Origin: Dissophora ornata
Taxonomy: Eukaryota; Mortierellomycota; Mortierellomycetes; Mortierellales; Mortierellaceae
Reading direction: 5' to 3'
Length of the DNA stretch: 47,954 bases
Assembly (NCBI GenBank): GCA_025201705.1
Contig: MU616735.1
Coordinates: 1-47,954 of the forward strand
Part shown: piece after piece, positions 14,011-40,979 of the stretch
Layout: each line of letters starts with the position of its first letter
Numbering within the stretch: the stretch's first letter is position 1
Notes under the pieces: generated by a model
What the model was told of the DNA's origin: nothing
What the model saw: the letters and a program-made list of their open reading frames with translations, nothing else
The model's database searches: none
Program-made: the position numbers and the translations under genes

Positions 14011-15483
14011 ATGTCCTCGGTAAATACTGCAGCTAATTGTTCTGTGCACCATGCATGGCGTACATTACAGAGAGAACCGTTTAACTAACGCTGCAATAAT
14101 AACAATTGTCAATTCATATGTGCAGAACTCGAACGAAGTCGTCGTAGTCGACTACCAGGATCTTGTCAACGGTGTCGACGTCTCTGCCAAGATCGAAAAG
14201 GCATTTGGCGCACATAAACATTGCCTGGGTCTGTTGCTCGTTAGCAACTTGCCCTCCGAGTACTTAGCTCTTCGTGAGCGCCTCTTGAAGTTGGCATCGA
14301 CATTCGCGGCATTGCCGGAGGAGGCCAAGGACAAGACGGTCCATGCGGACAGTCGCTACAGCTTTGGATGGAGCTGTGGTAAAGAGATCATGAACGGCAA
14401 GCCAGGTGAGTTGTGATTTTCAAGACAACACTGAGATTGTTCAGGACTAGTGCGTTTCATGGACAGGGGGGGTGGCATACCTCTGAACATATGCTGTGCC
14501 CCGTGGGAACGGAAACACGACTGATGGGGTGCTTATTTGACATTGGACGTGCAAATCGGGATTTAAAAACATGAGCCGCAGGAACCTCCAGATGGGAAAA
14601 TGAAAGGGCAAAAGCGAAGTCGACACTTTTTGTGCAACATCGCGCCCCACATTCATGCGAGAAACTCTGTTGACCCACTTTTTTTTTTTTTTTTTTTTTT
14701 GCTTTATTAGACGTGTCGAAGGGAAGCTATTACGCCAACCCTCTTATGGATGAGCCCGAGTCCTCCAAGGTTCTTCAGGAAAAGTTTCCCGAGTACTGCC
14801 ACCCCAACGTTTGGCCCGAGGAGGACCTCCCAGAGCTGGAGCAGGCGTTCAAGGAATTGGGACAGTTCGTTGTCGCGGTCGGAAAGCAGGTCGCCAAGAC
14901 CTGTGATGCCTTTGTGCACTCTAAATTGCCCTCGTTCTCGCCCACACATCTCCAGGACGTGATCCGGGAGTCCAAGACAACCAAGGCCAGATTGCTGCAT
15001 TACTACCCGCAGACGGGCGCTGCGGAGGGGGAGAAGAGGGATGATATGGATTCGTGGTGCGGTTGGCATTTGGACCACGGTTCCCTTACGGGTCTCACCA
15101 GCGCCATGTTCATTGATGAGTCCAGCAAGGATGGACTGCAAGAAGTTTCTTGCCCAGACCCAGAGGCAGGATTGTATATTCGTAATCGCGGAAATGAGGT
15201 CGTGAAGGCCTCAATCCCCCGTGATCATTTGGCGTTCCAGACGGGCGAGGCTTTGCAGTTGGCGACGAGGGGTCTTTTGGCAGCTACGCCACACTGCGTC
15301 AGGGGTGCAACTCCTCCAGAGGAGGATCCTAAGCGCTATGCCACGTTGGCCAGAAACACGTTTGCGGTGTTTATGCAGCCCTCGTTGGAGACTGTTGTCA
15401 CAGAAGATGGACGCAACTTTGGGCAGTGGACTAAGGAGGTACTTGACCGTTACTACGACAAGGCAGAGGACACTGAAATTTGA
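14011..15483 (+). CDS. 2-oxoglutarate/Fe(II)-dependent oxygenase, isopenicillin-N-synthase-like
   Basis: Three exons: 14011-14019 (only ATG TCC TCG), 14126-14405 and 14711-15483, giving 353 aa. The fold signature is present. WHLDHGSLTGL gives His216 and Asp218 of the iron-binding facial triad, ATPHCVRG gives the distal His291, and an Arg about 19 residues later (LARNTFAVF) is placed to bind 2-oxoglutarate. The stretch KGSYYANPL is shared with plant and fungal members of unknown substrate. No membrane segment or targeting signal is seen, so it is probably cytosolic. It converges tail-to-tail with the LEU2-LEU1 fusion gene, 188 bp apart. Whether it acts on a branched-chain metabolite is speculation. 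The second intron contains a 22-nt T run (14679-14700). Confidence 0.88.
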
Positions 15484-15671: not shown

Positions 15672-18600
15672 TTACCAAGTGAGCTCGCTGTCGTCGCCAC
15701 AGTTGCTCTTGGAGGCAGCCTTGACTTCGCTTCCGCAGCTCGAGGCGCTCTCGGGGGCAGTGGCAACGCGGAACAGCTGCTTGCCGTAGGTCTTGTACAT
15801 CTCGGTAACACCACCACCGGCCAAAAGGCGCTCCTCCATCAAGGACAAGCCAAAGGCATACTCCTGGCCGCCACAGTGGACCTTGCGATCCTTGACATCA
15901 ATGGCGACCTCAGCACCCTCCTGAGCGTGCTTGTAGAAGGACTCGTCCTCGATCGTGATTCCGAGAAGGGACATGTTGGGCTGGTTACGGGCATAGATGA
16001 AGGCGTAAGACTTGGCGATCACAGCCTTGATACCAGCACCGAGGAGGGCACGAGGAGCCTCCTCGCGAGACGATCCAGAACCGAAACCACTGCCTCCAAC
16101 GACAATGTCGAATCCCTGCTTGGCAAGCTCTCTGAACTCGGGCTTGACGAACTGGAAGGCGTGGGTTCCGAGATCCACATCCGAAGTACCGGGCATGAAC
16201 TGGGCGGGGATGATGGCATCCGTATCAATGTTATCCTCGAAGCGCTGGACGCGACCCTTGATCGTGGCCGAGAACGAAGGTGGAGGGGCGGGGAGAGACT
16301 TGTCGGCAGTCTTCTCGTCGTAGTAAATAGGGAAAGGCTCAGAGTAGACAACGGGCTTGCCCTTCTCGATCCACATCTCCAACATCTCCTCGTAGCGGGC
16401 ACGGTCGATGATGTCCAAGAGATCACGGGGGTTGCGGATCTTCATGTCGAAGGACGAAGCAGCGACAGTGGCAGCAGAGGCTAAGTTACCGATGGCACCC
16501 TTACCCATGCGGTTGCGGAAGTTACGGTTCTGGGAAGACAACCAGACCTCACCCTCACCAGCCTGATCAGCAGCGACAGCAATACAGTAAGAGCATCCGG
16601 GAGCACCAATCTCGAATCCAGCCTGCTCGTAGATCTTGAGCAATCCCAAGCGACGGAGCTTGGCGACAATGGGGACCGATCCGGGGGTGACCTTACGCTT
16701 GCCACCAATGGCAGGGACAAGACCCTTCTTAAGACCAGCCTCCAAGACCAAGGCGGCCAAGATCAAGTCCTCCTCAGCAGTGGTGCAGGCACCAATGAAG
16801 CATCCATCCAACTTTGTACCAGAGCAGTCATCGACAGCAACACAGTTATCGGGATCGGGGAAGAGAGCGACCAACGACTCGACCTTGGACAAGTCGATCA
16901 CATGGGTCTCGGCATAGTGAGCATCCTCATCGGCCTTGAAGTACAGGGCAGCGTTCTTGTGCTGGGGGTTCTTGCGCTTAGCAATGTAGGCAGCAGTGAT
17001 TTCATCAGCCTCGCAGACACCAGCGATACCACCAAACTCGGTGGCCATGTTGGACAAAGCGAAACGAGCATCGCAGGACAAGTGCTTCAAACCGGGTCCA
17101 GTGTACTCGACCGAGCGCTCAAAGGCGACAGTGTTACGCTTGAGCTGCTGGAGGACGTAAAGAATGGCGTCCTTTCCACCAATACCGAAAGGAGGCTGGT
17201 TGACGAAGCGAATCTCAACAGTCTCAGGAACCTTGAACCAGGTCTCTCCAGTAACCAAGGGCATGACAACATCAGCAGCTCCGAGACCAACAGCAAAGGC
17301 ACCGACGGCACCAGCAGAGCAAGAGTGAGAGTCGGCACCAATGATCATCTGACCGGGCTGAGCACGCTCACGGTAGAACTCGGTGTGGAGAATCGAGTAG
17401 TTGGCGCCATAGAAATCAATGAGCTTGGCCTCCTTGGCGAAATCGGTCGAGGCCTTGATGAGCTCCTTGGGCTTGGCAAGGTGGTTGATGCTGGGGTCGA
17501 CAGTGTGGTCAATGGCGAGCCAGAAGCGATCGTTACGGTAGACGCTGGGGCGACCCATCTGATCGTAGGTCTTGTCCATACCCTTCCAGGTCAACTCGGA
17601 GGCCAAGGTCCAGTCAACAGACACGCAAACCATGTCGCCGGGCTTGACGTTTCCGGGAGCAGGGAGTCCGATGGCGTTGTGAGCAATGATCTTCTCGGAG
17701 ATGGTCATACCGCGACGACCGCTGGCACGGGTCAAAGCCAAGGGGCGGGTGATGGGTGCACCTTCGGCAGCATTGAGACCGAAGAGCTCCTTCTCGAGAA
17801 CCTCCAAAATCTTGTCACCCATCTCCTTGGTGGACTTATCGCCGCCCAAATCACGGGTGCGGAAAGCATATCCAGCACGATCGGCATCGTCCAAGACCTT
17901 GCGAACAGAGTCCTCAACAGCAACGGCTTCAGCCTCCAAGCCCAAGGAGTAGCGCAACAACATGGCAGCAGACAGAATAGTTCCAACGGGGTTGGCAACA
18001 CCCTGACCAGCAATATCGGGAGCCGATCCGTGGATGGGCTCATAGACACCCAAGCAGGTCTTACCCTTCTCGGGAAGTCCGCTCAAGGAGGCAGAGGGCA
18101 AGAGACCGAGGGATCCAGGAATGACAGAGGCCTCATCCGAGAGAATATCACCAAACATGTTCTCGGTCAAAATCACACCGTTCAAGCCGCGAGGGTTCTT
18201 GACGAGGAACATGGCGGCAGAGTCTACCAAGTGGTGACCAACCTTGAGCTGAGGGAACTCCTTCTCAATGACCTCAGTGACAGTCTTGCGCCAGAGGCGA
18301 GACGAGGCCAAGACGTTGGCCTTGTCGATCGAGTGGATGGGCCAGGCAGGCTCGTGCTGGAGGGCCAGGGTAGCAGCCAAGCGGGTGACGCGCTCGACCT
18401 CGGCCTTGGAGTAAGGGAGGGTATCGTAGGCATAACCATCCTCCTCGGTGGCCTCCTTGCGGTCTCCAAAGTAGATACCTCCGACCAACTCGCGAATCAT
18501 CATAAAGTCAACGCCCTTGACGATGGACTCCTTGAGAGGTGAGTGTGAGATCAGGGCATCGGAGGCGAAGGTGCAGGGGCGAAGGTTGGCGTACAAGTCA

Positions 18601-19092
18601 AGGCTCTTCCTGAGGGTGAGGAGACCCTGCTCGGGTCTGGGGTTTCCTGTTGCCCACTTGGGGCCTCCTACTGCTCCCAAGAGAATGGCGTCGGCAGCCT
18701 TGCACGAGGCGAGGGCAGCGTCTGTGAGGGCAGTGCCTATTTGTGTCGAAGAGTCATTGGAAAAAGAACGTCACTTTTAGTTATCTCTTTTTCGTTTTTG
18801 TTCTGTGTCATTGCGCGCATTATAATTTCATCTTTCTCGGCAAGATGGACAGAGAGCAGAAAACAAAGTAAAGAGAACGGAGAATAGAAAGAATAGAAAA
18901 AAATAAACGCAACTTACCAGAAGCATCAATTGAGGCTCCTCCGATCAACTCCTCCTTGAAGGTGATGTTGATCTTGTGTGATCTGACCTTGGCCACCAAC
19001 TCGAGGACGCGCTTGGCCTCGGCGGTAACCTCGGGACCAACACCGTCTCCGGGCAAGAGCACTACTGTGGATTGTCTAGGGGCTGCAGTCAT
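15672..19092 (-). CDS. Fused 3-isopropylmalate dehydrogenase / isopropylmalate isomerase-like protein (LEU2-LEU1)
   Basis: Two exons, 19092-18918 and 18736-15672, encode 1079 aa in one frame. Residues 1 to about 378 are a complete isopropylmalate dehydrogenase: [69 protein letters not shown] and [13 protein letters not shown]. After a linker of roughly 20 residues comes an aconitase-superfamily large domain (about 402-870). Its putative [4Fe-4S] cysteines are Cys709 (GACTTAEED) and Cys773/Cys776 (PGCSYC). A LeuD-like swivel domain follows (about 880-1050, [17 protein letters not shown]). Together these would catalyse two consecutive leucine steps, 2-isopropylmalate to 3-isopropylmalate and then oxidative decarboxylation. 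No mitochondrial presequence is visible, so it is expected in the cytosol. The isomerase half differs from canonical yeast Leu1 at key motifs (GSCTNSR, GCGSSREHAPWAL), so its substrate is less certain than that of the dehydrogenase half. Confidence 0.93.
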
Positions 19093-19734
19093 GACTGTGG
19101 ATGTGTGAGTGTGTGAAAAATGAGTCTTTCTTTCGTAAAATGGAGTTCAGGGACGAGATGTTGAAAGCGGGTAAATTATCGACACGAGATATCAAACAGG
19201 AGAGCGTGGGGAAAAGCGATGTAAATCAAATAGATGAAAGGGGGGGATGTCTCGGTTGATGGAGAGAAAAGAATGGAGAAGTAGTATGGAGGAGAAAAGA
19301 AAAGAGGAAAGAAAGAAAAGGGGGCATGGGTTTTATATCCCTCAGCAACATGCGTGGCCGAATTGCGGAGGATTGTCATCCGAGTAATAGTGGGTGATTG
19401 CCCAATGAGGAAGCCATATGCCGAGACGACGATTTCAAAAGATGACCCATATGACTTGCAGCGAGTTATCTTGCCTGATCCAAGCTGAACCTTAATGCTA
19501 CTCACCGTGCTGAACTGCAACTCATCCAAACTAATATGACTGTTCTCGTTGAGGCCTTTGTCATTGCTGCCTTTGTCATTGCTGCCTTCGATGTGAGAAC
19601 GTCCAGAGTTTTCAGGGGTGGGGGAGTTCACAGTTTTGCAGGATTTATCATGGATCAATCATGCATCTTTAGTGTTCGAGTGAAAATACTTTTTACTGTG
19701 TCTGCATCTAGGTGTAATGTCTGGTCTATACTAT
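19093..19734. other. Upstream region of the LEU2-LEU1 fusion gene
   Basis: It contains a TATA block (19321-19344), a CT-rich leader on the minus strand, and a TGAGTC element at 19121-19126 that matches six of seven bases of a Gcn4-type site. A perfect 12-bp palindrome CAGTCATGACTG overlaps the start codon. The far end is the ILV6 3' flank. No further gene seen. Confidence 0.6.
19321..19344 (-). promoter_or_regulatory. TATA block of the LEU2-LEU1 fusion gene
   Basis: On the minus strand it reads AGGGATATAAAACCCATGCC, about 240 nt upstream of the ATG. A near-copy lies upstream of ILV5 at 27311-27336. Confidence 0.6.
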
Positions 19735-20936
19735 CTATCCCGGAGGCAACATTGAAGCATCAACACCCGATCCCTCCTCCTGCGCCTCATCCTCGTCATT
19801 CTCATGTCGGTCATAGACCGGCGACCGAGGCATCGCCATCATACCGCTCCTCGCCGCCTCCAAGATGCCAAAGGGCTTCACCAGCTTAACGAACGCATCC
19901 ACGCGATCAGGCTTTGCAGAGAGCTCCACCACGACGCAATCGCCGCTCACATCAACAACCCTGCCCTGGAACAGCTTTGCGAGCTCCGTCAGCGACTTCA
20001 GGTGAGCGTGGGTCTGGCGCAAGGCACTGGAGGGCGACATGTCCTCCTCAGCCTCGTCTTCCACGGCCTGCCAGTGAGGTGACCGGGAGTTCATCTGGGC
20101 ACGGACGTGTTCGGGTCCAAGGATCGAGACCTTGATCAAAAGCAACTCGCGCTCAATCACCTTGGATCCTGTGTAGTCCAATACTGCCCAAACCGGTACC
20201 TTTAGTTTTGGATAGCACGGTAAAAATGACAAGATTCCCGAGAGACGAGGTTAGCGCCCAGGGTCAAGTTAAACAAAGTGGGCAAATCATAAACCAAGCG
20301 TGCCAATTAAAGCCGATACGTACAAGGTCCTCTAATTGTCTCCGGGCCTGCTCGATAGTTGTGGATTCGCCCTTCAGGACGATGGTCATACGACTCAGGT
20401 CCGCCACTTCTGTCTTCGCAACCACAAGAGAGTCAATGTTAAATCCTCTTCCTGCCAAGATTCCCGACACACGACTCAGGACACCGGGTTCGTTCTGGAC
20501 CAGACAGTTAAGAACATGACGCTGGCGGGCTTGGTGGAGTCCAGCGGGCGGGGTGTTGTAGAGAATGTTGGATACGGCTTCCTCTGCAGAGGGGGGTGCT
20601 GGGTGAAGATAGTCCGATGTCAAAGCAGGGTGGCGCTTATGAGGGTGCGACCGCTTGTAGGAGATGGCAGAGGTCGAGGAGGATGATTGGCGGAGGAAGA
20701 TGGGGTTGATAGCGCGGGGCTTCATCGCTGAAGCGGCAGCGGCGGAGGTCTATACATCGCCATTGATCCAGCAACAAGCAAAGAAGAGTGAATCCAGTGC
20801 CTCAAATGGTTAGCATGGAATCGAAGCATGAACAGCGCCCCTGACTTCGAGCCTTGTCCCTGAGAGTAGTAGTAGTAGAAGCACGTACCAGCGGAGCCGC
20901 CTTTGCAGCCGAACTGAGGATCCTGCTAGCCCACAT
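19735..20936 (-). CDS. ILV6: Acetolactate synthase regulatory (small) subunit
   Basis: Three exons: 20936-20889, 20749-20324 and 20199-19735, 312 aa. The first exon (MWASRILSSAAKAAPL) and the Ser/Arg-rich start of exon 2 look like a mitochondrial presequence. Next comes the ACT domain: RHVLNCLVQNEPGVLSRVSGI, GRGFNIDSLVV, RMTIVLKG, and the Ilv6 hallmark LEDLVPVWAVLDYT, whose codons are split exactly across intron 2. The C-terminal domain contains GRVVDVSGD and FGILEAARSGMMAMPRS. The subunit binds Ilv2 in mitochondria, stimulates it and confers valine feedback inhibition. The segment around 19735-19790, with several Asp and Glu residues (ENDEDEAQEE), is a variable acidic tail. It lies 642 bp upstream of and parallel to the LEU2-LEU1 fusion. 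Confidence 0.96.
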
Positions 20937-21639
20937 GGTGTATGGTCGGGGGGTAGGTGTTGTTGAGGGGGGAGGGGTTGAAAGGGAGATCAGAATGAAG
21001 AAGAAAAAGAATGGGAAAGTGATCGATGAGGGCGCTTGAAAAAGTGCGTGTCCTGAGTGGTGCGTGTTGTGTGTGTGGAGAGTGCGCGCCACGGAACACA
21101 AGTTAAGGTAAACTAATTTTTAGGTTCGATGTTGCACATCGACTTACGGATATGAGTAACTGATTTACGTTAACCTAGCCTACGTTAACTTGATGACACC
21201 GCTGACTGACTGACCGTCCGCAGGACCAATCACAGTCATCCGCACATGTGAGAGATTGTCCTCCTCTTTGGCCGTCTTCTCGAGGCTTATCGCGCGATCG
21301 TCGCCCCTCGGTTTCATTCATAGAGCCTCTCCTTCGTCACACGCAGCAGGATCGTGCTGTCCCTGACATTCATTCCCAAGTTGACTCCAGGGGTATGATC
21401 GAGTCGCTGCAGGTGAGATTTGCACAGCAATTGAGCTCGTGCTGTGTGCGTATAATGCATTTTCCACAAACACAGTTTCAACAAACACAGTTGCAATAAA
21501 CAAAGCACGATGGAGATTACAGAATTGCAGTATAAATGATTCTATTGTAAAAAACTAGGGGTACACATACGTCGTGGTCGTGGCCATCATCACGTCTTTC
21601 TCTCACACCAAAAAGGGTCCATCTAATCGAGTAAGGGTC
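20937..21639. other. ILV6 promoter and HIBCH 3' flank
   Basis: The minus strand just upstream of ILV6 is CT-rich and has no TATA box. A segment with repeated GTTAAC/TTAAC half-sites (about 21105-21195) stands out. No gene seen. Confidence 0.55.
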
Positions 21640-23602
21640 CTAGTTGATCCACTTGAGCTCGCCTTCAGGACCCTTCGTGACCTTGCGCGACAACACCTCC
21701 AGGACCTTCTCCCGGACGCCGATCTTTCCTCCGCTCTTCTTCACACAGACATCGGCAACTTCATCGGCCGTCAGCTGCAATGGTCCACTACCCTGTGCCT
21801 CGCCCGTCACAATCATGCGGATATCGTTCTCAGAGGGAAGACCATATCTCCTGTAAGGGTATTCTCTCCAAGAGACAGTGTTCGACAGAGACAGAGGCTT
21901 GGGTGCCTGGTTTCTAAAGTAGACACCCAACATCTGCTCGCGATCTACATCCTCGATCGTCGCAGGCTTCCACTGAGGGTTCAAGGATTTCTCGATCAAC
22001 AGGGCCTTAACACCCTCTGCGAAATCGTGTCCGTGCAAAAACTGACGAGCGAGCTGATGCTCCATCCTGAAGCAGTCTGCAATGCCCAAGTTGCCACCCT
22101 CGCGGATCTGCTGAAGTGTGACCTTGAGGGAGGTGGGGGACATGCTGCGAAGGGTCTTCAGCGTATCATTCGCAAAAGGTGTATCCTCCTTCTCCAAGGC
22201 CGCAACGATCTCCTCGATAGTGTCGTAACGGAAGCAGCGGTCGATGGCTTCGCGGTGATCGGAGAGGGCGTACTTGTGGTCGTGCAGAGGTTCACTGACA
22301 AAGTCCTCAATAGCCATGTTGATCACGTCGTGGTTGTCGGTCTCCAGCTCGCTCAGACGATCTTCCAACGAGGCCAAGCGCTCCGAGGGAACGTAGTGAG
22401 TGGCAATTCCAGCAAAGCTATATTCCAAGATAATGCAAACATAGATCCAGGTCAATAACGGTGCCCCTAGCCAAAACCCCATTGTGCCCTGACCTGGGTA
22501 AAATCCACAAGTCCGTGTCACACGCTTACACAGTGTCGATGCCTTTCAGGCGGGAGCCAACAAGACCGAGGTAAGTTCCAGTCTCGCCATCCAAGCGAGG
22601 CAAGAAGAATGACCCTCCAACGTCCGGGAACAGACCAATGTTGGTCTCGGGCATAGCGAACAAAGTCTTCTCCGTCGCAATCCTGAATGGCGCATGAACG
22701 GAAAGACCAACTCCACCACCCACTAAGAAGACAGTCAAGTGATAGTGTCATTAGATTATCACGCGCTATTTCCATGTCTTTCTTGCTGTGATGAGATTGA
22801 TAAAAGGTGATGGCTTACTGGTGATTCCGTTGAGAATGGCAACGAAGGGCGTCTTCAAGGTGGCGATCATGTGGTTCAACTTGTATTCCTCCGAGAAGAA
22901 TTCCAACGCATCGCTTTGCTTTCCGGCTTCGGCCAACTCCACAACCTGGCGAACGTCCCCTCCAGCGCAGAAAGCCTTCTCTCCTGACCCCTTAATGACA
23001 ATGACTTTGCACAGATCCGAAGCATCCCATGCCTAGATGAATGATGTCAGTAAAGTGTGGAGCGTTTAGCATGGCCTAGTCATGTCAAGATACGCGGATG
23101 TTTCTTCTAGTTGTACATATTAAATCGCGGTTCCTGACCTGGAGCTGAGGGGTCATGTTGCGAACCATGCTCAAGTTCAGAGCGTTGAGGGCCTTTGGGC
23201 GGTTGAGAACAAAGGTGCGGCTGGAAAGGTGCTTGCGATGCAAAACATCGGCCTAATGGTAGCAATGCAGTTATCGTAAGTGTTTCATCGAGATCCGCGT
23301 CATATCTCTGAACATATATCTGTGGATGACCCATACCTCGGCAGCATCGCTCTTCGCAGCGGTTGTGGACATCTAATATATCGGTGATGTAAAGGAGATA
23401 GGTGGAGACATGTGTGAATGCCTGTAGGAAGGAGTAGGATGTGCTTTGCGCGTTTGCTATGTCACCCGGTCAGGAACGGAGTTGTTTGCCATACGTTGAC
23501 CCTTGCTCCGAGCCAGTTGTTGACCATGCGAATGCGGTGTTGGGCGACGATCGATGGCGACCTCTTTGAGGCGTTAGTGATGCGGATTGACTGGCGCAGC
23601 AT
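21640..23602 (-). CDS. 3-hydroxyisobutyryl-CoA hydrolase, mitochondrial (valine catabolism)
   Basis: Six exons: 23602-23495, 23372-23337, 23252-23139, 23032-22819, 22722-22530 and 22417-21640, 480 aa. The first exon ([15 protein letters not shown]...) is a basic, Ser-rich mitochondrial presequence that joins in frame to the second. The second also begins with ATG, so a shorter form lacking the presequence is possible. The body is an enoyl-CoA hydratase/isomerase fold of the HIBCH class: [21 protein letters not shown], and [21 protein letters not shown] with the conserved Glu and Asp of HIBCH enzymes, then [13 protein letters not shown] and [12 protein letters not shown]. It hydrolyses 3-hydroxyisobutyryl-CoA, a valine breakdown step. 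Its location between ILV6 and ILV5 puts a catabolic gene inside a biosynthetic cluster. A CRE palindrome lies about 123 nt upstream. Confidence 0.93.
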
Positions 23603-23724
23603 TGTCGGGGTGGGGTATGGTGTTCGTTGGGTTGAAAGAAAAACAACTGACGGCTGGAATGTGCGAATGCCCGATTGTGGGAATAAAAAAAATAAAAGCG
23701 GAAACCGCCGCCCACCCGCCCTAA

Positions 23725-23732
23725 TGACGTCA
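23725..23732. promoter_or_regulatory. CRE palindrome TGACGTCA upstream of the HIBCH gene
   Basis: A perfect ATF/CREB-type 8-mer, 123 nt upstream of the HIBCH start codon on the minus strand. A match of this length can occur by chance, but its position fits a bZIP-regulated promoter. Confidence 0.4.
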
Positions 23733-24800
23733 CCGTCATTATTTCCAAGCAAGCACACCACGCGCTATTCGTGATAGTAATGAACTCGCAGTTCTTGGCC
23801 TGGAGTTCTATTGGAGCAAGGTCCAACGATCCGTAAGGATCAAAAGCGACATCGTTGTGGACGCTTGGGTGCCACAAGCCAATTAGAACGAGTAGAAAAA
23901 CAGCGTGGTAAGGGAGGGTCAAAAACCGTTACTGTTGCCAAAGAGATCACGGAAAGACCGAAGGAGGCGAGGATACGCTTGCAGCCAGGGTGCAAAATTC
24001 GTTTGTTTGCCAGCGCAGCACACTTTCCGCCTCGCCTGGACCTATGAAGTACACTTTTTGTTGTTGTTGTTGCGCTACAGCCTGTCACCCTTGCCTCCAG
24101 CCTCGATTTGAACGGCGCGATGGAGTTCCCAGCAGGGCATGAATTCCTCGGGAAGGAAGAAACCGTTTGTTTGTTTCTCGGCGAAAAAGGGCGCCTTCCT
24201 TCGCCCTCGCCCCTTCTCCTCTGTCTTCGCCTTGGCTTGCGTCCTTTTATCTGTCGATGTGGTTTCGTTTCACGACGCCGTCCACCTCATGATATCGGCT
24301 TTTGTTGTTGTTACAACTTACAAGTAATACTGGGAATGCAAACAGCCATGTATTGCACTATGCCGTCTTGTTTATCTTTTAAGATGAAAAGTGAAGTCAT
24401 AACAATGCACGAGCCTTTGGCAGAGTGTAGTTACAAATCTTAATAGGAAACAGGTATCCTTGCCTTCTCCATTGGGACAGTACACATGTACACAACAATG
24501 CAGATCAATAAGTAAAGGAAGAGGTTCATGTATTAGGGTTCCTGGCCCGGCCAGCTTTGAACAAAGAATGGATACATGGGCTTAACCAACATACTTTTAA
24601 AATGAAACATCTCCGAATGGCTTTGTTCGCAAAGAGTTAAACAGATAAAAAGGCTACGATGAAAGTCTTCTCAATCAACTTCACTTTTCTTTCCTTTCAT
24701 ATCTTGCTTGCGCCTATTCACTGTTCCTTCCTCCTTCCTGTTTCCTTCTCCCTCTTGTTTCTTCTTCATCCTGCTCTGTCCTCCTCCCTGTTTTGCGGTG
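23733..24800. other. Intergenic region
   Basis: It begins with HIBCH promoter sequence. About 24680-24790 is a CT-rich leader of the following plus-strand ORF. Short ORFs overlap on both strands, and I see no convincing gene. Confidence 0.55.
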
Positions 24801-24807
24801 TATATAA
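24801..24807 (+). promoter_or_regulatory. TATA box of the orphan ORF
   Basis: TATATAA lies 101 nt upstream of the ORF's first ATG, after a long CT-rich stretch. The arrangement suggests a genuine promoter for the otherwise unrecognised ORF. Confidence 0.5.
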
Positions 24808-24907
24808 CTGACTAGGTAGGTCTTCTTTCGACACAAATTACCAAGTCTGTGTCTGTTCTTGCATGTCACTGTAAGATATCCTGTCGAGCTGACCAGCGCC
24901 AGTGACT

Positions 24908-25414
24908 ATGGATTGTCATATATTAGTGACCTGCACAATGTCTATTGGCTATGCGATTACTGGTGCGAAGGTGCTGGACTATGGCTTCCAAAAACTGACG
25001 AACCACATGAATGGCACGCTCGGCAACATGCTTATGCAATATCAGACGTCATTGACCTCAGCCCAGTGTGAAAAGAGGGAGATCTCTTATAACAGCAGCA
25101 AATGGAGGATTATAGTAAGATGCGGAAGGCAAATCGCATATGAAGACGCGAGGACTCTTCTGGCGATGTTGGTATCTGAAGTAGAGCCATATCTCGATGT
25201 GAAAAGCATCCATTTTGAGAAAACGTCCATCACAACGATGTTTGAGAATGCCAGACAGAAGATCGCAGCCGTCCACCTTAATGAGCCGGAGTCCTCGATG
25301 GAGCTTTGGGAGTGTAGCCGATCATCGCCTAATTTTATGAAGGGATGTGTCGACCCTGATTACGGATTTAAAAAGACAGAGTGGTCCGAATGGAAGACGG
25401 TTGTTGGACTTTGA
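24908..25414 (+). CDS. Hypothetical protein, 168 aa, no recognised family
   Basis: Single open frame from ATG 24908 to TGA, 168 aa. The N-terminus (MDCHILVTCTMSIGYAI) is mildly hydrophobic but not a clear signal peptide. The middle (KWRIIVRCGRQIAYEDARTLLAMLV) alternates strand- and helix-like stretches. The C-terminus is Trp- and Cys-containing (ELWECSRSS, KTEWSEW). Six cysteines are spread through it. A TATA box and CT-rich leader upstream support transcription. Base use is more AT-rich than in its ILV and LEU neighbours, consistent with low expression or a young gene. It could be a lineage-specific gene inserted in the BCAA cluster. No function can be assigned. Confidence 0.5.
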   Translation: MDCHILVTCTMSIGYAITGAKVLDYGFQKLTNHMNGTLGNMLMQYQTSLTSAQCEKREISYNSSKWRIIVRCGRQIAYEDARTLLAMLVSEVEPYLDVKSIHFEKTSITTMFENARQKIAAVHLNEPESSMELWECSRSSPNFMKGCVDPDYGFKKTEWSEWKTVVGL

Positions 25415-25836
25415 GTGTGTGCGCGCAGGGAGTGTCACATTCCATAAATTGTCCGAGACAAGAATTTTATGTCTGATCTGCAACTTGATCTGCAACTGTC
25501 CTTTCTGAACCCACTGGCTTATCCATGCGCGCTACGTCAAAGTTTGTTTTTCGAAAATCAGAGATTTGACAATGTACCAAATGAAAACCGACTTTAAATT
25601 TCTATTCAGAGGCCTTGTCAGGTCTGGAGTCAGAAAATTCATTAGTCACAAAAATTCTCTGCAAGACACATTAGTTGAGGATCATGTCGATCTGTTTATT
25701 TTGACGATTGGTGTATATGAGAGTGAAGGTTTTGTATGGTACACGCGCCTTCTCAGCGCAACAATAAAATATGAAAAAAGAAGGGCAGTCTAAGGTGAAG
25801 GAATTGTAGATCGAAACCAGACACACAGCAGGGTGT
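25415..25836. other. Intergenic region with a 74-codon ORF
   Basis: An ORF from ATG 25572 to 25793 on the plus strand has no recognisable domain and AT-rich composition. It may be the decayed tail or a second small gene of the orphan locus, or chance. The ILV5 3' end follows. Confidence 0.35.
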
Positions 25837-27149
25837 TTACTGGTTCTCGGGTCTCAACTTGCGCACAGACTTGCCGGTGCGCCACATCTCGTGGTTGGCG
25901 ATCTCGGCCAACTCAGCCTCAAGCTCAGCACGGTAGTTGGGAGCAGAGTTCTTGGTCAACGACCTCCTGGTCTCAGTTCCGTTGGCAACAGACTCGTACA
26001 ACTCCTCAAAGACAGGCTTGGAGGCATCATGGAACTTCTTCCACCAGTCGAGAGCACCACGCTGAGCAGTCGTCGAGCAGTTGGCGTACATCCAGTCCAT
26101 ACCATTGGCACCGATCAAGGGGTAGAGCGACTGGGTGGCCTCCTCAACGGTCTCGTTGAAGGCCTCAGAGGGAGAGTGGCCGCGGGCACGGAGAACATCG
26201 TACTGAGCAACAAAGAGACCCTGGATGGCGCCCATCAACACTCCACGCTCACCATAGAGATCAGAGTAGACCTCCTTCTTGAAGGTGGTCTCGTAAAGGT
26301 AACCAGTGCCGACACCGACACCGAGAGCAACGGCGCGCTCCTGGGCCTTGCCAGAAACATCCTGGTAGACAGCAACGGATCCGTTGATACCGCGTCCCTC
26401 AAGGAAGAGGTTGCGGACGGTAGTGCCGGAACCCTTGGGGGCGACGAGAATGACATCAATGTCCTTGGGAGGGACGACGCCAGTATCCTCAGAGTAGATG
26501 ACGGAGAATCCGTGGGAGAAGTAGAGAGTCTTGCCCTTGGTGAGGTAGGGCTTGATCTCGTTCCAGAGCTTGGACTGGGCAGCGTCGGAAAGCAAGTTCA
26601 TGATGATGGTACCACGGTCGCAAGCCTCGTTGATCTCGAACAGGTCCTTTCCGGGAACCCAGCCCTCAGAGACGGCCTTGTCCCAGGAAGCGCCCTTGCG
26701 GGATCCAATAATGACATTGAGCTTGTTGTCACGGAGGTTGAGTGCCTGACCACGGCCCATGGGACCGTATCCGAGGACGGTAAGGGTGTCGTCCTTGAAG
26801 GTCTCCTGGAGCTTGGCGGGAGGGTAATCGCTGCGCTCATAGACAACCTCCTTCGTGCCAGCGAAGTCCATCGTCTTGACGCCACGGGTCTGAGTGAAGG
26901 CGACCTGTATTGATTTCATCCATGTGGAGATCAAGAAAGTCAGTTTTCTGGATGCTTTTTGGGATGTAGCTCCAAACAGCGAGAGTAGCAAGCAAGCGAG
27001 GCTATTGCAGAGTTATTCATTACCTTGCAGGCGGCAGCGCGGGGGACGTGGGTGACGGCAGCAGAGCGTGCCATGACGGAGAAGGCGCGGGCAGAGGGGG
27101 CAGCGACGCGAGTCAGCTGGCGGAAAGCGGAGCGGGCAACGAAGCTCAT
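25837..27149 (-). CDS. ILV5: Ketol-acid reductoisomerase, mitochondrial
   Basis: Two exons, 27149-27024 and 26904-25837, encode 397 aa (yeast Ilv5 has 395). Residues 1 to about 45 (MSFVARSAFRQLTRVAAPSA...) are a typical Arg/Ala/Ser presequence. The NADPH-binding Rossmann domain follows (VLGYGPMGRGQALNLRD, NVIIGSRKGASW, TLYFSHGFSVIYS, DVILVAPKGSG). Then comes the knotted all-helical domain with metal-binding residues (SDLYGERGVLMGAIQG, NETVEEATQSLYPLIG, GMDWMYANCSTTAQRGALDW), ending KLRPENQ exactly as in yeast. It converts acetohydroxy acids to dihydroxy acids in isoleucine and valine synthesis. The dinucleotide loop reads GYGPMGRG where GYGSQGYG is usual in yeast. It is divergent from ILV2 across a 1.3-kb promoter region. 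Confidence 0.97.
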
Positions 27150-27310
27150 GATGTGTATGTTTGTTTGTGTGAGTGTTGTTGACGTTGAAATAAGGATGGA
27201 GGCTTTTAGTGAAAGCAGAGAGTGGAGAGGAGATCAGGGGGGAAAGCCAACAGGCACTTTGTCTAGGTGGGTATGAGGATGAAGAGAAGAAGAAAAAGAT
27301 GAAGGGGAGA

Positions 27311-27336
27311 GGATCGGGATGGGTTTATATACCCTG
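27311..27336 (-). promoter_or_regulatory. TATA block of ILV5
   Basis: On the minus strand it reads AGGGTATATAAACCCATCCC, about 180 nt upstream of the ILV5 ATG, followed by a CT-rich leader. It closely resembles the block upstream of the LEU2-LEU1 fusion. Confidence 0.65.
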
Positions 27337-27963
27337 GAGATCGGATAGAGCAACAATATTTATCGCGGTAATCTCAGACACCATGTACACTTCGCGATCA
27401 GAGCGATAAAGACGGCCATCATGGCCACGATCCACTTTCTTGTTTGTTTGCATGTTCGCTGGTGCACACTGACGGAAAATTATTATTTTAGACCTGTGTG
27501 GCAAAGTAATGAGTAACATGAGGCAGGGGACAGGTCCAATGAGTGACGGACGGGAACCTTAAATTGATTGGAATCGTTGGCTGAGCGAGCTGCGATAGCG
27601 GTCTAGATAACTTAACTTTGCCTGACTTAAGAGAAAGACTGTTTGTTCAAAAGGCAACATGGATGTGGGGCGGCATGGCCTGATAGCCTGTGCGAGGGAA
27701 AGCATGCGCCTGACATCAACCACGACATGTTGGTGGCAAACAAAGAAAAGAGAGAGCAGATCAAGAGGGCGATAAACAACAGTAGTGCACCAGTCGCCAC
27801 CAACCCGGCTTCTGTCTCTCGGTTGGAGTAGGACTCGAGAGGATAGAAAAAGCAGTCTCGAAATGGCGTTGGCCAGTGAGATCTGCGCACGATGATTGGT
27901 CGGATGAAATGAGTAATGTGAGTGCGCGTGTGGGCGGATGTGCCGATAGCGGACTGCGGGGTA

Positions 27964-27969
27964 GAGTCA
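27964..27969 (-). promoter_or_regulatory. Gcn4/CPC1-like site core (TGACTC)
   Basis: GAGTCA on the plus strand sits within the small dyad AGAGTCAACTCT, 476 nt upstream of the ILV2 ATG. General amino-acid control acts through TGASTCA in fungi. A six-base core is weak evidence alone. Confidence 0.3.
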
Positions 27970-28444
27970 ACTCTGTCACCGTTATCCTCTCTCCACACAC
28001 ACACGCATCTTTTTCATATGCAAACCGCCCTTTTTTAGCGTGGAGCCGCAACAGGCCCACAGACCTGTTGCTCATATCCGTCGTGTTGTGTCTGCCCCGG
28101 GAGCGCGGTCTTCTATCAGCCAATCCAATCCTCATTTGTGATTTGTGCTGTTCTTTTGCTTTATTCCATCAATCAATGCGTCCCGTTGCGAGTCTCTTTT
28201 TTCATTTATATCTGAACGGTTTCTCTCTTTTCCCATTCCTTTTTCGTTCTCTTTTCCACCGCTCACACTCTTTCGCTGACAAAGACTGCTTTCCTTTTGC
28301 CTTCGACATCTTCGTTGCTGGACTCATCCTTCGTCGTTCTCCCCCCCTATACCAAGAGAGCTCGCAACCATCGCCCTCGTTGAGCCTCCACCTTTCTAGT
28401 CTCCCCTTTTTCACGACACCCTTTCTCTACTCACTCTCACAACC

Positions 28445-30807
28445 ATGCAAGCACAGTCCTTTGCCCGTCTGGCCAGATCCACATACTCTGCTGTGAGCAG
28501 ACAGAGCCTCAGCAAGCCCCTCTCTCTCACTTCCGCAACAAGGATCGCCGCCACCCAAATCCGCTTCAGATCCTCTGCTGCCACCGCTGAGTCCAACTCA
28601 CAACAAAAGTAAGCAGTCGCTCAGTTTCTATTTCTCTTCCGCGAGCCTTCTAATGGAGATGTTTTTTTTTTGCTAACGATAACACCACTTTTCCCTCGAA
28701 AACAACGATTAGTGTTGCTGCTGTCAACTCTGCCGCTGCCCCTCTCCAGCCCCTGGATCACGCACAGCAATCAAAGACATCGGCACATCCCGACCATGAT
28801 CATTCGTTTGTGGGCATGTCTGGAGGACAGATCTTTCACGAGATGATGCTGAGACATAACGTCAAGCACGTCTTTGGTTATCCTGGAGGAGCGATTTTGC
28901 CCGTCTTCGATGCTATCTACAACTCGAAGCACTTTCAGTTTATCCTGCCCAGAGCTGAGCAAGGAGCAGGCCATGCCGCCGAGGGATATGCTCGTGTCAC
29001 GTAAGTGTTGAGATTCCCCCTAATCAATCTTTTCCATCTCGGTTATGGTCAAAAAGAGCAATGATTTATGGTTTTCGTTATCTCTGGGCAACGACGGGCT
29101 TGTGCTTCTCCAGCGCAGAGAAGATTGAGATCAAAGCATATTTTCCGGAGCAAAGCTTGATCCGAATCTTACGCTAACCTTCTTTTCTATTGGCGGATCT
29201 CATTTGCACTCGCACATGACAGTGGAAAGCCCGGAGTCGTCCTTGTCACCTCTGGCCCTGGCGCCACTAATGTTATCACCGCAATGCAGGATGCTCTCTC
29301 GGATGGAACGCCAATGGTCGTCTTCACAGGACAGGTCCCTGTCAGCGCCATCGGCTCGGACGCTTTCCAGGAGGCTGATGTCGTCGGAATCTCGCGTGCG
29401 TGCACAAAGTGGAACGTCATGGTCAAGGATATTGCCGATCTCCCCAGACGCATCAACGAGGCGTTCGAAATCGCCACTTCGGGTCGTCCCGGACCCGTTT
29501 TGGTTGACTTGCCCAAAGACGTCACTGCTGCTATCGTCAATAAGCCTATCCCAGCCGCACCAAGTATTCCTGCCAGACCCCCTACCAGCCAGGCCCCTTT
29601 CTTCTCGGGATTGGCTAAGGACGCCTCCCAGGTCACTTCTCCTCAGATCCTTCGTGCTGCCCAGTTGATCAATGCCGCTAAGCGTCCGTTGATCTATGCC
29701 GGCCAGGGTATCTTGGCCCACCCCGATGGTCCCGCTCGCCTCAAGGAGCTCTCCCATAACGGAAACATCCCTGTCACGACCACTCTTCAGGGTCTTGGTT
29801 CCTTTGATGAATTGGATCACCGCTCGCTCCACATGGTCGGTATGCACGGTTCCGCTTATGCCAACCTTGCCATGCAGAAGGCTGATGTGATCATTGCCTT
29901 GGGTGCCCGTTTCGATGACCGTGTCACCGCCAATGTTCCCCGCTTTGCTCCCGAGGCCCGCAAGGCCGCTGCCGAGAAGCGTGGTGGTATCATTCACTTC
30001 GAGATCTCACCCAAGAATATCAACAAGGTCGTCCAGGCCACTGAGGCTATTGAAGGTGATGTGACCGAGAACTTGACCAAGCTGTTGCCCTTGATCGAGA
30101 CATCCGAGCGCAAGGAGTGGTTCTCAAAGCTTGACAACTGGAAGACCAACTTCCCTTTCCACCACAATCAGGACCCCAACGGCATCTTGTTGCCCCAGAC
30201 TGTCATTCAGGAGCTCGACAAGCAGACGGCACACATGAAGGAGAAGGTCATCATCTCGACCGGTGTTGGACAGCATCAAATGTGGGCCGCCCAGTACTTC
30301 CGCTGGCGCCATCCTCGCACCCTGGTCACTTCGGGTGGTTTGGGAACTATGGGATTCGGTCTTCCAGCAGCCATTGGAGCCAAGGTCGGCAAGCCTGATC
30401 ACATTGTTGTCGATATTGATGGTGATGCCAGTTTCTGCATGACCGGCATGGAGTTGGCGACCGCTGCTCAGTACAACATCGGTGTCAAGGTCTTGATTCT
30501 CAACAACGACTTCCAGGGTATGGTAAAGCAGTGGCAAGATCTCTTCTATGAGGAGCGCTACTCTGGAACGCAAATGTTCAACCCAGACTTCGTCAAGTTG
30601 GCGGAGGCGATGAACATCAAGGGACTCCGCGCAACATCGATGCAGGACCTTCCTGGCGCCATGGCTGAGTTCTTGGCTCATCCTGGCCCCGTTGTTTTGG
30701 AGGCCAAGGTCTGCAAGCGCGAGCACGTGTTCCCCATGGCACCAGCTGCTAACGCATTGCACGAGTTTATTGTCCATCCCGACCAAGCAAACCGAAGCCG
30801 CGATTAA
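28445..30807 (+). CDS. ILV2: Acetolactate (acetohydroxyacid) synthase catalytic subunit, mitochondrial
   Basis: Three exons: 28445-28608, 28713-29000 and 29223-30807, 678 aa (yeast Ilv2 has 687). The first about 50 residues form a mitochondrial presequence (MQAQSFARLARSTYSAVSRQ...). Thiamine-diphosphate enzyme landmarks follow: VFGYPGGAILP, then PRAEQGAGHAAEGYAR with catalytic Glu137, and GKPGVVLVTSGPGATN. The FAD-domain segment ALGARFDDRVTA is next. The ThDP/Mg motif starts GDA at residue 551 and ends Asn578-Asn579. The sites mutated in sulfonylurea-resistant enzymes keep the sensitive residues (Pro190 in GQVP, Trp588 in KQWQD). It makes acetolactate and acetohydroxybutyrate, the first common step to valine, leucine and isoleucine, with Ilv6 encoded about 7.5 kb away. 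Confidence 0.98.
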
Positions 30808-34730: not shown

Positions 34731-35073
34731 TAAGAAAAACAGTAGGGAGGAGACAATATACCTCAAAGCAGATGAGACTTTCTGTAAATGTTTTCCATCC
34801 TCAAACGAAATATGCTAGTTTTTGAGCCCTCATGAATGCCCACTTTTCCAGGGTGTCCTCAAGCAACAGAACGCGCCCCACGCGTAGAGTTCATGGTGCA
34901 CAAAAATATTAACAGTCACCAGTGGCTCAGCAGTTAAAACGAGCGAAGCTTTGCAACTGCAACCGCATCGACCTCTTTGTCCATCACCATTCCAATCCTT
35001 TGAATCAATCCTCCAACGAACAGCATCCTTACCGCCCACTATCCAGACAACTGTACCAAAAAAATAAAACGAA
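34731..35073. other. Short intergenic region
   Basis: 343 bp holding the methyltransferase 3' end and the SF3A2 promoter. Nothing else recognisable. Confidence 0.6.
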
Positions 35074-35982
35074 ATGGCCGACAGACAGAACCGAGTGGGA
35101 TCAAAGATCGGAGGTGCTGGTGTTGCTGGCGCCTCTGAAAGCAACGTCGACAGGAGAGAACGTCTTCGCAAACTGGCCCTGGAAACCATTGGTCAGTACC
35201 TCCACCTCGAATCGTCATTCAGCATTACCGCTCCCCCATTCAGAACAACAGTTAACACGTTTGGTTTTATTTTGCTCTTCGCTTGCACAATTCATATAGA
35301 CTTGGCAAAGGACCCTTACTTCATGAGGAATCACTTGGGATCATACGAATGTAAACTCTGTCTGACGCTACACACCAACGAAGGATCTTATCTCGCCCAT
35401 ACACAAGGAAAGAAGCATCAGACTAACCTCGGCCGCAGAGCTGCCAAGGATGCAATGGAGAAGCCTGACAGCATGGCCCCTCTCACAGCACAACAACAAC
35501 AAGCCCTCAAAGCAGGAGCCAGCTCTGCACCAGCATTCAAGCGCAACATTATTAAGATTGGTCGCCCCGGTTACAAAGTCACCAAAGTCAGGGATCCTGC
35601 CTCTCGTCAGGTTGGCATGCTGTTTGAGATTGCGTACCCAGAGATCGCGCAGGGAGTTGAACCTCGGTACAGATTCATGTCGGCGTATGAGCAGCAGGTT
35701 CAGGCACCGAACAAGGCTTACCAGTACTTGGTCATTGCGGCAGAGCCCTACGAGACGATTGCATTCAAGATCCAGAGCAGGGACATTGACAGAGCCGAGG
35801 AAAAACTGTGGAGCCATTGGGACATGGACCAGAAGATGTATACACTGCAGTTCTTTTTCAAGAACGATCAGCGCATGCTGAGTTCGAGTCGGATGGAAAA
35901 CGCACCCGGGTATAGCGCACCAGGTACACAGATGGCCAACCCGCTGAACCCTTTCCATGCACCGATGCGAACGGCAGCATGA
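35074..35982 (+). CDS. Splicing factor 3A subunit 2 (PRP11 orthologue)
   Basis: Two exons, 35074-35191 and 35300-35982, 266 aa. The N-terminus MADRQNRVGSKIGGAGVA and the spliced LETIDLAKDPYFMRNHLGSYECKLC are nearly invariant in SF3A2. The U1-type zinc finger has cysteines in YECKLC and histidines in YLAHTQGKKH. The later stretch GRPGYKVTKVRDP and LLFEI-type (here MLFEIAYPEI) through WDMDQKMYTLQFFFK is the conserved core that contacts U2 snRNP. It acts in the nucleus as part of SF3a in pre-spliceosome assembly. The intron happens to be open in frame, so an unspliced reading would insert about 36 foreign residues. The protein lacks the long proline-rich tail of animal SF3A2, as usual in fungi. 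Confidence 0.96.
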   Translation: MADRQNRVGSKIGGAGVAGASESNVDRRERLRKLALETIGQYLHLESSFSITAPPFRTTVNTFGFILLFACTIHIDLAKDPYFMRNHLGSYECKLCLTLHTNEGSYLAHTQGKKHQTNLGRRAAKDAMEKPDSMAPLTAQQQQALKAGASSAPAFKRNIIKIGRPGYKVTKVRDPASRQVGMLFEIAYPEIAQGVEPRYRFMSAYEQQVQAPNKAYQYLVIAAEPYETIAFKIQSRDIDRAEEKLWSHWDMDQKMYTLQFFFKNDQRMLSSSRMENAPGYSAPGTQMANPLNPFHAPMRTAA

Positions 35983-36094
35983 GTAAATCGCGATTGAAAG
36001 CCATTTGGGTAGTAAATAAATATCAGGACAATGGCTCAGCAGGATACACATTTTGACATGGCTTATTTAATGAAGTATACGAAAAAAAAACTCC

Positions 36095-37147
36095 TTATGC
36101 CTCATCCTCATCTTCTTCGCCCTCTCTGAAGCGTGGGTTCGCCTTTGAACGCTGCTGTTCATCTTCATCTTCGTCATCGTCTCTCGCTCTCTTTGATGAT
36201 TCTGCGATCACGGACATAAAGAAAGAAATAAATAAATGTTAGATCACACCCAGAGACTAGGAGAACCGAAAACATATAAACCCCATTGTCCAAGGGAGGA
36301 GGAGAGGGAGCATATCTCCTGCTTCTCATTACCTTCTTGTTGGTCCTTGTAATCCTGGTTAGCACCCTCGGGAATAGTTGTGATAGCCTCGTAGTTGGCC
36401 TTCTGTTCTCTTTCACGTTCAGCCTCCTGTCTCGCCCGAACATGACCCCATCCTCCACGACCAGCGTCAAACTCCTGTCTGTACTCGTCACGAACCTGAC
36501 CGCCACTCCTGCCGCGACCAAACTGTCGTCCTTCTCTGTATCCGTGGTCGAGATCTGAGCGGACGATACGCTCGTCCAGTTTTGAGCTGTTGATATATTT
36601 CATGCAGTCCAGTGCATCCGCATGATGGTAGTATCTATAGAAGAAATAGCAGCACACACACAGAGCGAGAGGGGGGTGGCGATAAACAATCGTTACTTGA
36701 GAATGAAATCCACAGGTGTGGCAAACAGTTTACAGCTGTCTAAAAGCAATCGAGACTTACTCTACAAAGCAAAATCCACATGGAGTCTTTTGGTTACGGT
36801 CAAGACCCATGATGATACGCTTGATCTCGCCACATTTGGAAAAGAGTTCATAGATCTGTTCCTCAGTTGTATAGAACGACAAGTTGCCGACGTAGAGTGT
36901 CGTGGAATTGGCGAGATCCTGGGCCAGCTGACTGGAATTGCCCTGGTACTGTTGGTCCTTGTAGGCGGACGGAACTGAGAGTGATTGAACGATCGAGGCC
37001 TATATATAACGGAAACACACAGATACGTTTGTGAGATGAATGAGGGGGAATCACTCTGTAATAGCCACTGACAAGTTTGGGGAGAGAGAAGACTTGAGCT
37101 GAAGAAAAGCGTCTGTCGTGCATTCTCTCCAAAGTCGCAGTGTTCAT
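36095..37147 (-). CDS. Nuclear cap-binding protein subunit 2 (CBP20)
   Basis: Four exons: 37147-37073, 36999-36761, 36634-36333 and 36201-36095, 240 aa. The single RRM has RNP2 (LYVGNL, preceded by STT) and RNP1 ([12 protein letters not shown]). The surrounding residues are typical of CBP20 ([27 protein letters not shown]). After it come the cap-binding segments [24 protein letters not shown] and the Arg/Gly-rich tail, ending in a strongly acidic patch ([11 protein letters not shown]). It binds the m7G cap together with CBP80 in the nucleus. The first exon (25 aa) is not conserved in the family. It is inferred from an in-frame ATG and a GTCAGT donor, and is the least certain part. Confidence 0.94.
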
Positions 37148-37427
37148 GAGGTCGTGCGGGGTTATCCTGTTTGCTCTCTTGTATCGATGACGAACGATGG
37201 ATGTGTTCAAGTGTGTGTAGGAGACGCAGGCAAGTTGAAAGCTGTCATTTGTATCTATTGCATGCTAAGCATTACCATCGTCAGTGAATGCCAAAAGGTG
37301 TAGTTGAAAAGACGAAGGAGTGTGCGGTTCACTCTCTCTTCGCGTTTGCCAGCATGTAGAATCCCAAATGAGGATAGTGACTGTATTGTGGCTTGCATAT
37401 GATCAAACTATACAGGAAACGTAAACA

Positions 37428-37467
<40 letters not shown>

Positions 37468-37700
37468 CAGCTTCACTTGAACCTGGCTAGTCAGACCTCC
37501 TACGAACGCTCATCCCATTGCTTTGCTTTGTCCCCTCTTAGCATTTAGGAACAGCAAAATCGGCATTAGCATTCCTCAACAACCCCGAACAAGCAATTCC
37601 TCGATTTTTCAAACTCTTTTCGACATATCCTAATAGTATTTGTCAGGAGTCTGAAAACGAAAAAAAAAACGAAAAACTACATATCTTTTCTTGATACAGC
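37148..37700. other. Divergent NCBP2-UTP12 promoter region
   Basis: 553 bp between two start codons, both of RNA-processing genes. It contains a 38-nt T homopolymer (37430-37467) immediately followed by CAG. Confidence 0.65.
37430..37467 (+). repeat. T(38) homopolymer
   Basis: Unbroken run of 38 T. It could act as a poly(dA:dT) nucleosome-excluding element. Its exact length may be a sequencing or assembly artefact. Confidence 0.8.
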
Positions 37701-40700: not shown

Positions 40701-40979
40701 AGAGCCGGTCTGCAAAAGCAGAAGGTAAAAAAACTTTTTTTTCTCCGAGTCGTTGCTCCATGTTATTTCTATTGTCCTAAATAGCCCAAACTGATCTTGC
40801 TTTAATATTCACTTCTGCTCGCATAGGATCTCATCGGATTCAACGTCGCTGCGCTCAACTATATCCGACGCGACTACGAGGCCAACAACACATCCGAGTT
40901 CTTTGACGAGGAGGCGGTTCGCAAGGACGAGGAGAAGAAGCAAGAATCGGAAAAGAAGCGCAAGTTCTTGAAGATGTAA
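37701..40979 (+). CDS. U3 snoRNP-associated WD40 protein UTP12 (DIP2/WDR3)
   Basis: Five exons: 37701-37853, 37944-39123, 39213-39310, 39411-40724 and 40827-40979, 965 aa (yeast Dip2 has 943). The N-terminus MVKAYQRYTPRTTFGVI and two tandem WD40 propellers are evident, with many GH...WD repeats such as GHRSAVTALAFDKSG, GSKDTDLIVWD, GSADKDVKFWD, CSADKNVKLWG and ASKDRTVKYWD. A lysine-rich insert (KKKMSRRKRRQREK) lies between the propellers and may carry nuclear localisation. The C-terminal Utp12 domain (DEALLVLPFAAVTSLL, FFLIKSHHNQIV, LRAGLQKQKDLIGFNVAALNYI) is complete and ends KKRKFLKM. It is part of the UTP-B module of the small-subunit processome in the nucleolus. Confidence 0.97.

Follow-up and report, generated by a model that had tools for sequence, protein, structure and literature searches.

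A branched-chain amino acid gene cluster with a LEU2-LEU1-like fusion gene in Dissophora ornata

In well-studied fungi, genes of primary metabolism seldom form clusters. Why, then, do four genes of branched-chain amino acid (BCAA) synthesis lie side by side on one contig of the fungus Dissophora ornata, and what does the gene that joins LEU2 to a LEU1-like sequence encode? These questions are raised by contig MU616735.1 (C174) of assembly GCA_025201705.1, whose whole length, 47,954 bp without any N, is called the window below; the assembly has 31.37 Mb in 968 contigs. Gene models were assembled from open frames and splice-consistent borders and are sequence-based predictions, and gene identities come from Pfam and NCBIfam profiles with their curated cut-offs. 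The reading we favour, with rather better than even confidence, is that of an old native BCAA cluster, a fuller form of the clusters of Mortierella alpina, in which the fused gene most likely encodes a bifunctional isomerase-dehydrogenase.

Gene content and order of the array

A stretch of 15.1 kb in the window contains ILV2, ILV6 and ILV5, all intact and intron-bearing, together with a single-frame LEU2-LEU1-like fusion. From left to right the order is fusion (-), ILV6 (-), 3-hydroxyisobutyryl-CoA hydrolase (-), a doubtful frame (+), ILV5 (-) and ILV2 (+):

15672..19092, minus strand: LEU2-LEU1-like fusion gene, 1,079 residues; one intron, 18738-18917; Iso_dh, Aconitase and Aconitase_C domains
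17709..19092, minus strand: LEU2 half with linker, 401 residues; intron 18738-18917; TIGR00169 leuB, 414 bits (cut-off 353)
15672..17708, minus strand: LEU1-like half of joined LeuC+LeuD type, 678 residues, tail LTW; by profile scores and cysteines C308, C372 and C375
19735..20725, minus strand: ILV6, acetohydroxyacid synthase regulatory subunit; intron 20200-20323; ALS_ss_C and ACT domains
21640..23372, minus strand: 3-hydroxyisobutyryl-CoA hydrolase of valine catabolism; five-exon model; ECH_2; PRK05617, 393 bits (cut-off 274)
24893..25414, plus strand: open frame of 173 residues that may not be a gene; no family above cut-off
25837..27149, minus strand: ILV5, ketol-acid reductoisomerase with presequence; intron 26905-27023; TIGR00465 ilvC, 340 bits (cut-off 226); TRGVK string
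27150..28444, no strand: divergent ILV5/ILV2 intergenic region of 1,295 bp, set by the gene starts; presumed shared promoter region
28445..30807, plus strand: ILV2, acetohydroxyacid synthase catalytic subunit with presequence; introns 28609-28712 and 29001-29222; TIGR00118, 647 bits (cut-off 538); IRFRS string

The initial annotation had placed ILV2, ILV6, ILV5 and a LEU2-LEU1 fusion within about 15 kb, and intact frames, splice-consistent introns and profile matches bear this out; it had overlooked the hydrolase between ILV6 and ILV5, as well as copies of ILV6 and ILV5 on contig C9. All five modelled genes contain introns. The N-termini of ILV2, ILV5 and ILV6 are, as judged by eye, basic and acid-poor, and the fusion begins at its enzyme domain, without a presequence. 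Three of the four M. alpina strings that were looked for, all predicted to mark presequence cleavage in that fungus (PMC8880518), recur at homologous places, namely IRF-RS in ILV2, TRG-VK in both ILV5 copies and HRY-ST in ILV3; the fourth, RFY-YR from BatA, did not turn up in the aminotransferase loci examined. Under a simple random-order model that assumes 10,000 genes, the chance of finding these four genes within six places is about 2e-10, and it rises to about 1e-7 when the four may be any of twelve pathway genes, so that chance linkage is negligible.

Other genes of the pathway lie on other contigs, with an ILV3 family gene on C683, an isopropylmalate synthase on C608 and aminotransferase class IV genes on C403, C816 and C369. 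The synthase scores 543 bits with leuA_bact and 91 with leuA_yeast, a type described for early-diverging fungi in the passages available of two reports (PMC2904702, PMC8880518). The synthase type and the shared presequence strings point, indirectly, to Mortierella or a fungus closely related to it. The equation of the array with bacterial ilvBNC plus leuBCD, drawn in the initial annotation, is therefore loose: the LEU1 half is non-canonical, a catabolic gene sits inside the array, and ILV3, the synthase and the aminotransferases are elsewhere.

The fused gene and its isomerase-like half

The frame of the fused gene is uninterrupted across the LEU2/LEU1 junction. Its LEU2 half is an ordinary 3-isopropylmalate dehydrogenase and the only leuB-type gene found above cut-off in the assembly; the other loci of the dehydrogenase family, seen as partial frames, fit best as isocitrate dehydrogenases (C143, C51, C199 and C298) or with the homoisocitrate/archaeal group (C223), and C167 resembles C298 as judged from its frame only. 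For the LEU1-like half the best-scoring model is PRK00402 (314 bits, cut-off 385), followed by TIGR02086 and TIGR01343 at 280 (cut-off 410) and 279.5 bits (cut-off 386), and the small-subunit model LEUD_arch reaches 110.7 bits, just above its cut-off of 108.95. The canonical leuC model, TIGR00170, gives 147 bits in two stretches and misses its cut-off of 560. The proposed LEU2-LEU1 fusion thus stands as a continuous frame of 1,079 residues, but by profile its LEU1 half is not canonical (314 bits with PRK00402 versus 147 with TIGR00170). On these scores the half appears closest to the LeuC2/homoaconitase group, as a very divergent relative, and not to the canonical fungal LEU1 type. The idea that the half is a duplicate of the homoaconitase gene already present in the fungus was considered and rejected, the LYS4-type gene being a distinct locus on C492, where a 339-residue piece gives 462 bits with h_aconitase (cut-off 530).

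In a 33-row alignment that includes the fusion, residues C308, C372 and C375, which we take to be the iron-sulphur (Fe-S) cluster cysteines of the aconitase superfamily, are invariant in every row, as are the DSH and NRNF motifs, and the SSRE motif is also kept in the fusion. The fusion ends in LTW, on a tail that is absent from the three fused prokaryotic rows of the alignment. In the passages available of a study of Fe-S delivery, yeast Leu1 and other proteins are served by cytosolic Fe-S delivery through a terminal [LIM]-[DES]-[WF] signal, the aromatic terminal residue is the most critical determinant of that signal, and bacterial, archaeal and organellar relatives are without it (PMC10623007); LTW has the terminal aromatic residue. 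One-frame LeuC+LeuD proteins of about 600 residues also occur in prokaryotic records, of WOR-3 and Bacteroidota (L077:3992-5812, L081:3247-5028 and L094:2388-4199).

Is there a canonical LEU1 elsewhere in the genome? With two aconitase models and the leuC model, no exon of one was found in the 31.37 Mb assembly, and nothing genome-wide exceeded the TIGR00170 cut-off of 560, the best match being 104 bits on C759. The aconitase model matches four genes assembly-wide: an aconitase-like gene on C759 (so called from its frame), an aconitase-type gene on C151, the homoaconitase-type gene on C492 and the fusion, which is the only isopropylmalate isomerase candidate found. A rough check of gene content recovered 14 proteasome-type and 12 Cpn60/TCP1-type loci (our grouping of matches), which makes large gaps in the assembly unlikely, with a single missing gene still possible.

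Together, these observations suggest a pathway in which ILV2, with ILV6, and ILV5 would carry out two of the steps that lead from pyruvate towards ketoisovalerate in the mitochondrion. Having no presequence, the fused protein would most likely act in the cytosol as a single bifunctional polypeptide, its aconitase-type half converting 2-isopropylmalate to 3-isopropylmalate and its LEU2 half oxidising the latter to ketoisocaproate, and its Fe-S cluster would be delivered by the cytosolic assembly machinery via the tryptophan-ended tail. That the half is joined to the enzyme of the following step argues that both halves serve the same pathway and form a bifunctional enzyme, and the context of prokaryotic relatives, described below, points to leucine synthesis as well. 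For the full scenario, in which the usual LEU1 was lost and replaced by an isomerase from another branch, joined to LEU2, matured by cytosolic Fe-S delivery and housed inside an ancestral ILV2-ILV6-ILV5-LEU cluster, we regard the case as evenly balanced.

Relatives, duplicate copies and rival explanations

To place the LEU1-like half, prokaryotes were scanned with six exact eight-residue patterns, one genome per species for 84,980 species, a design that misses relatives without the patterns. The scan returned 123 relatives, of which 80 were kept, with best-segment identities of 29-36%. A LEU2-like match lies in the fetched stretch at 46 of the 80 loci and is lacking at 34, some of the stretches being short; at the 39 loci where leuC, leuD and leuB are all complete, the order is invariably C-D-B, and this company of leucine genes suggests a leucine-synthesis context for the family. 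The fusion has LEU2 first. Its mean identity to the 39 loci is 33% for LeuC, 38% for LeuD and 46% for LeuB, versus medians among the prokaryotes themselves of 61%, 60% and 57% (741 pairs each); for the LeuD part, identity to prokaryotic loci reaches 46.5%. Plasmid records gave 557 matches to the LEU1 half, all below 60% identity (the eight listed at 33-36%), and scans of viral_contigs with the LEU1 half and with ILV5 gave no match. In a tree of 67 rows (the fusion, the fungus's own LYS4 and aconitase pieces, 60 of 75 LeuC frames and 4 fused frames), the fused half has a branch 7.07 changes per column long, without a safe placement. The low identities and this branch suggest that the half either is old or has evolved fast, and these comparisons show no prokaryotic donor.

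Contig C9 carries a second ILV6-ILV5 pair, ordered and oriented as in the window. Neither LEU2 nor ILV2 is among the frames listed at that locus, and a DNA comparison of the window with C9:100001-121344 recovers ILV5 and ILV6 only. Paralogues elsewhere, raised in the initial annotation as a reason for doubt, thus exist for ILV5 and ILV6; none was found in the assembly for ILV2 or for LEU2. Between the copies of ILV5, identity is 96% in protein, 90% in DNA and only 67% at fourfold sites (123 sites), so the duplication of ILV5 and ILV6 is old. An isocitrate dehydrogenase-like pair (C51/C199) has 70% identity at 88 fourfold sites, an age like that of the ILV5 pair, and two Cpn60/TCP1-type pairs (C77/C84 and C240/C432) look like duplicates, judged from similar exon patterns alone; such further pairs may reflect a large-scale duplication.

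Novelty of the clustering as such does not survive comparison with M. alpina ATCC32222, in which, according to the passages available of a published study, most early BCAA genes are found in two clusters that partly duplicate each other, ilvB-ilvF1-ilvE1 and ilvF2-ilvE2-leuB1, or ILV2-ILV6-ILV5 and ILV6-ILV5-LEU2 in yeast terms (PMC8880518). Both linkages, as reported there, meet in the array of the window. The simplest account of this is a single ancestral array, LEU2-ILV6-ILV5-ILV2, that would have been duplicated and then differently thinned: the window copy would have kept all members and the C9 copy only ILV6-ILV5, and in M. alpina the members would have been shared out over the two copies. 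We infer this history from the comparison of arrangements; if it is correct, both partial clusters of M. alpina could be understood from the single array, as one ancestral cluster that was copied and thinned.

How firmly does the isomerase reading hold? Several points weigh against it. The LEU1-like half falls below the cut-off of every large-subunit model among the best 25 of 26 listed. Beside its Fe-S cysteines, the near-invariant TNGR and CGPCLG motifs of the 33-row alignment are replaced by TTAE and CSYCIA. Its small-subunit loop, whose residues presumably serve substrate recognition, reads FMPGT, versus YLVYT in a solved isomerase and YLRTT in a solved homoaconitase. The threonine of LTW lies outside the middle set of the published signal, and the very long branch leaves the placement unsafe. 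Furthermore, the passages available give M. alpina a separate canonical LEU1 with E = 0 to yeast (PMC8880518), so that LEU1 has either been lost here or is missing from the assembly. With 968 contigs the assembly is fragmented, and one can argue that a canonical LEU1 escaped it and that the fused domain is not a working isomerase at all, acting on another substrate or having a structural or regulatory role. We consider this unlikely, though it deserves to be taken seriously: no canonical LEU1 exon appeared although three other aconitase-type genes did, the two sampled housekeeping families look well represented, and the half keeps its cysteines, NRNF, SSRE and tail as well as its fusion to the next enzyme, which argues for a role in the leucine pathway. 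Fungal proteins that stand alone and bear a similar ACTT/CSYC signature may exist, which we give as a lead only.

As to why the genes stay together, the co-regulation suggested in the initial annotation lacks support as stated. In the passages available, added BCAAs have little regulatory effect on the BCAA genes of M. alpina, which also lacks Leu3 and its sites, yet every gene of the leucine pathway goes up 3-4 fold with isoleucine, valine acts as an inducer of ilvA, ilvE1 and ilvF1, of which two are cluster members, and the three BCAAs together lower leuA1 and leuA2 (PMC8880518). Among the 1,000 bp before each of six gene starts, the ILV5/ILV2 intergenic region has one CCG-N4-CGG and one TGACTC, one GAGTCA precedes ILV6 and two CCG-N4-CGG precede the gene at 14 kb; the whole window has 13 and 14 such sites. 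For these few Leu3-like and Gcn4-like sites we claim no shared promoter pattern. The slight response to BCAAs, the scarcity of sites and the loss of members from the duplicate array would all fit a linkage that goes back to an ancestor and has persisted without selection for the genes to be co-regulated or inherited together. This alternative strikes us as possible but doubtful, as linkage of four pathway genes in random order is very unlikely, the linkage is also present in M. alpina, and the ilv genes there do respond to valine and isoleucine. Recent acquisition of a bacterial ilv-leu operon would account for a gene set similar to such operons and for the prokaryotic profile groups nearest the LEU1 half, but the introns in all five modelled genes, the basic N-terminal extensions, the 29-36% identity of the LEU1 half to the 80 loci, with 46.5% at most for the LeuD part, and a gene order opposite to leuC-leuD-leuB in 39/39 loci make it exceedingly improbable; we rejected such a transfer, in agreement with the initial annotation, on introns, identity levels and gene order. 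Scarcely any weight attaches, finally, to the idea that the window holds a secondary-metabolite cluster with ILV2 as its resistant copy, like the fungal clusters for acetolactate synthase inhibitors. Clusters of that kind, discovered via their resistance genes, are published, as far as the passages available go, but the window ILV2 is the only copy found in the assembly, and the 19 of 92 window frames given to Pfam showed neither a polyketide nor a peptide synthetase domain. We thus retain the old native cluster with a bifunctional fused enzyme as our preferred reading.

Neighbouring genes and comparison with known systems

Adjoining the fusion, window positions 14024-15483 (+) hold gene-like frames with an H-x-D...H pattern, which we take to resemble a 2-oxoglutarate/Fe(II) oxygenase; the frames have no Pfam match at E 0.001, and the second has none at E 1 either. 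Further out lie a tRNA-Leu with anticodon CAA (208-292, +), whose presence on the contig of the leucine genes is probably a coincidence, a 1,093-residue frame (2771-6052, -) that is A/K/E-rich and repeat-like and matches no Pfam family at E 0.001, and the housekeeping genes SF3A2, a WDR3/Utp12-type gene and the ribonucleotide reductase large subunit (35068-43451).

We find the fused, non-canonical LEU1 more surprising than the clustering. If it indeed performs the isomerase step, with both leucine steps in one protein, it would be a eukaryotic case of the replacement of a core Fe-S enzyme. According to the passages available, M. alpina is also used in industry to produce lipids and peptides that contain leucine (PMC8880518), a use for which BCAA supply matters. 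In the open-licence literature, including passages of PMC8262921 and PMC3901274, we recognised no report of a LEU2-LEU1 fusion or of a fuller fungal cluster. The clustering is known in kind from M. alpina; what looks new, as far as these sources go, is the meeting of both linkages in a single array and the LEU2-LEU1 fusion.

Among known systems, the clusters of M. alpina are the nearest: gene families and linkages are the same and ILV6 and ILV5 are likewise duplicated, but the set there is split over two contigs, whereas LEU2, ILV6, ILV5 and ILV2 form one array in the window, and for leuB1 the passages available mention no LEU1 domain and give LEU1 separately (PMC8880518). With canonical fungal LEU1 (yeast Leu1, of TIGR00170 type) the LEU1-like half would share the union of LeuC and LeuD in one protein, a cytosolic location and a tryptophan-ended tail, but by profile scores it appears to belong to another branch of the aconitase superfamily; yeast Leu1, moreover, is not joined to LEU2. 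The solved structures closest to its sub-parts are isopropylmalate/citramalate isomerases (4kp1, 4nqy and 3vba) and homoaconitases (4kp2 and 2pkp), which, unlike the fusion, consist of separate subunits and have other recognition-loop residues. Prokaryotic LeuC2-type leuC-leuD-leuB loci, such as that of Desulforadius tongensis (L040), also place homologous enzymes of consecutive leucine steps side by side, but as separate genes in the order C-D-B, with LeuC proteins to which the LEU1 half of the fusion is 30-35% identical.

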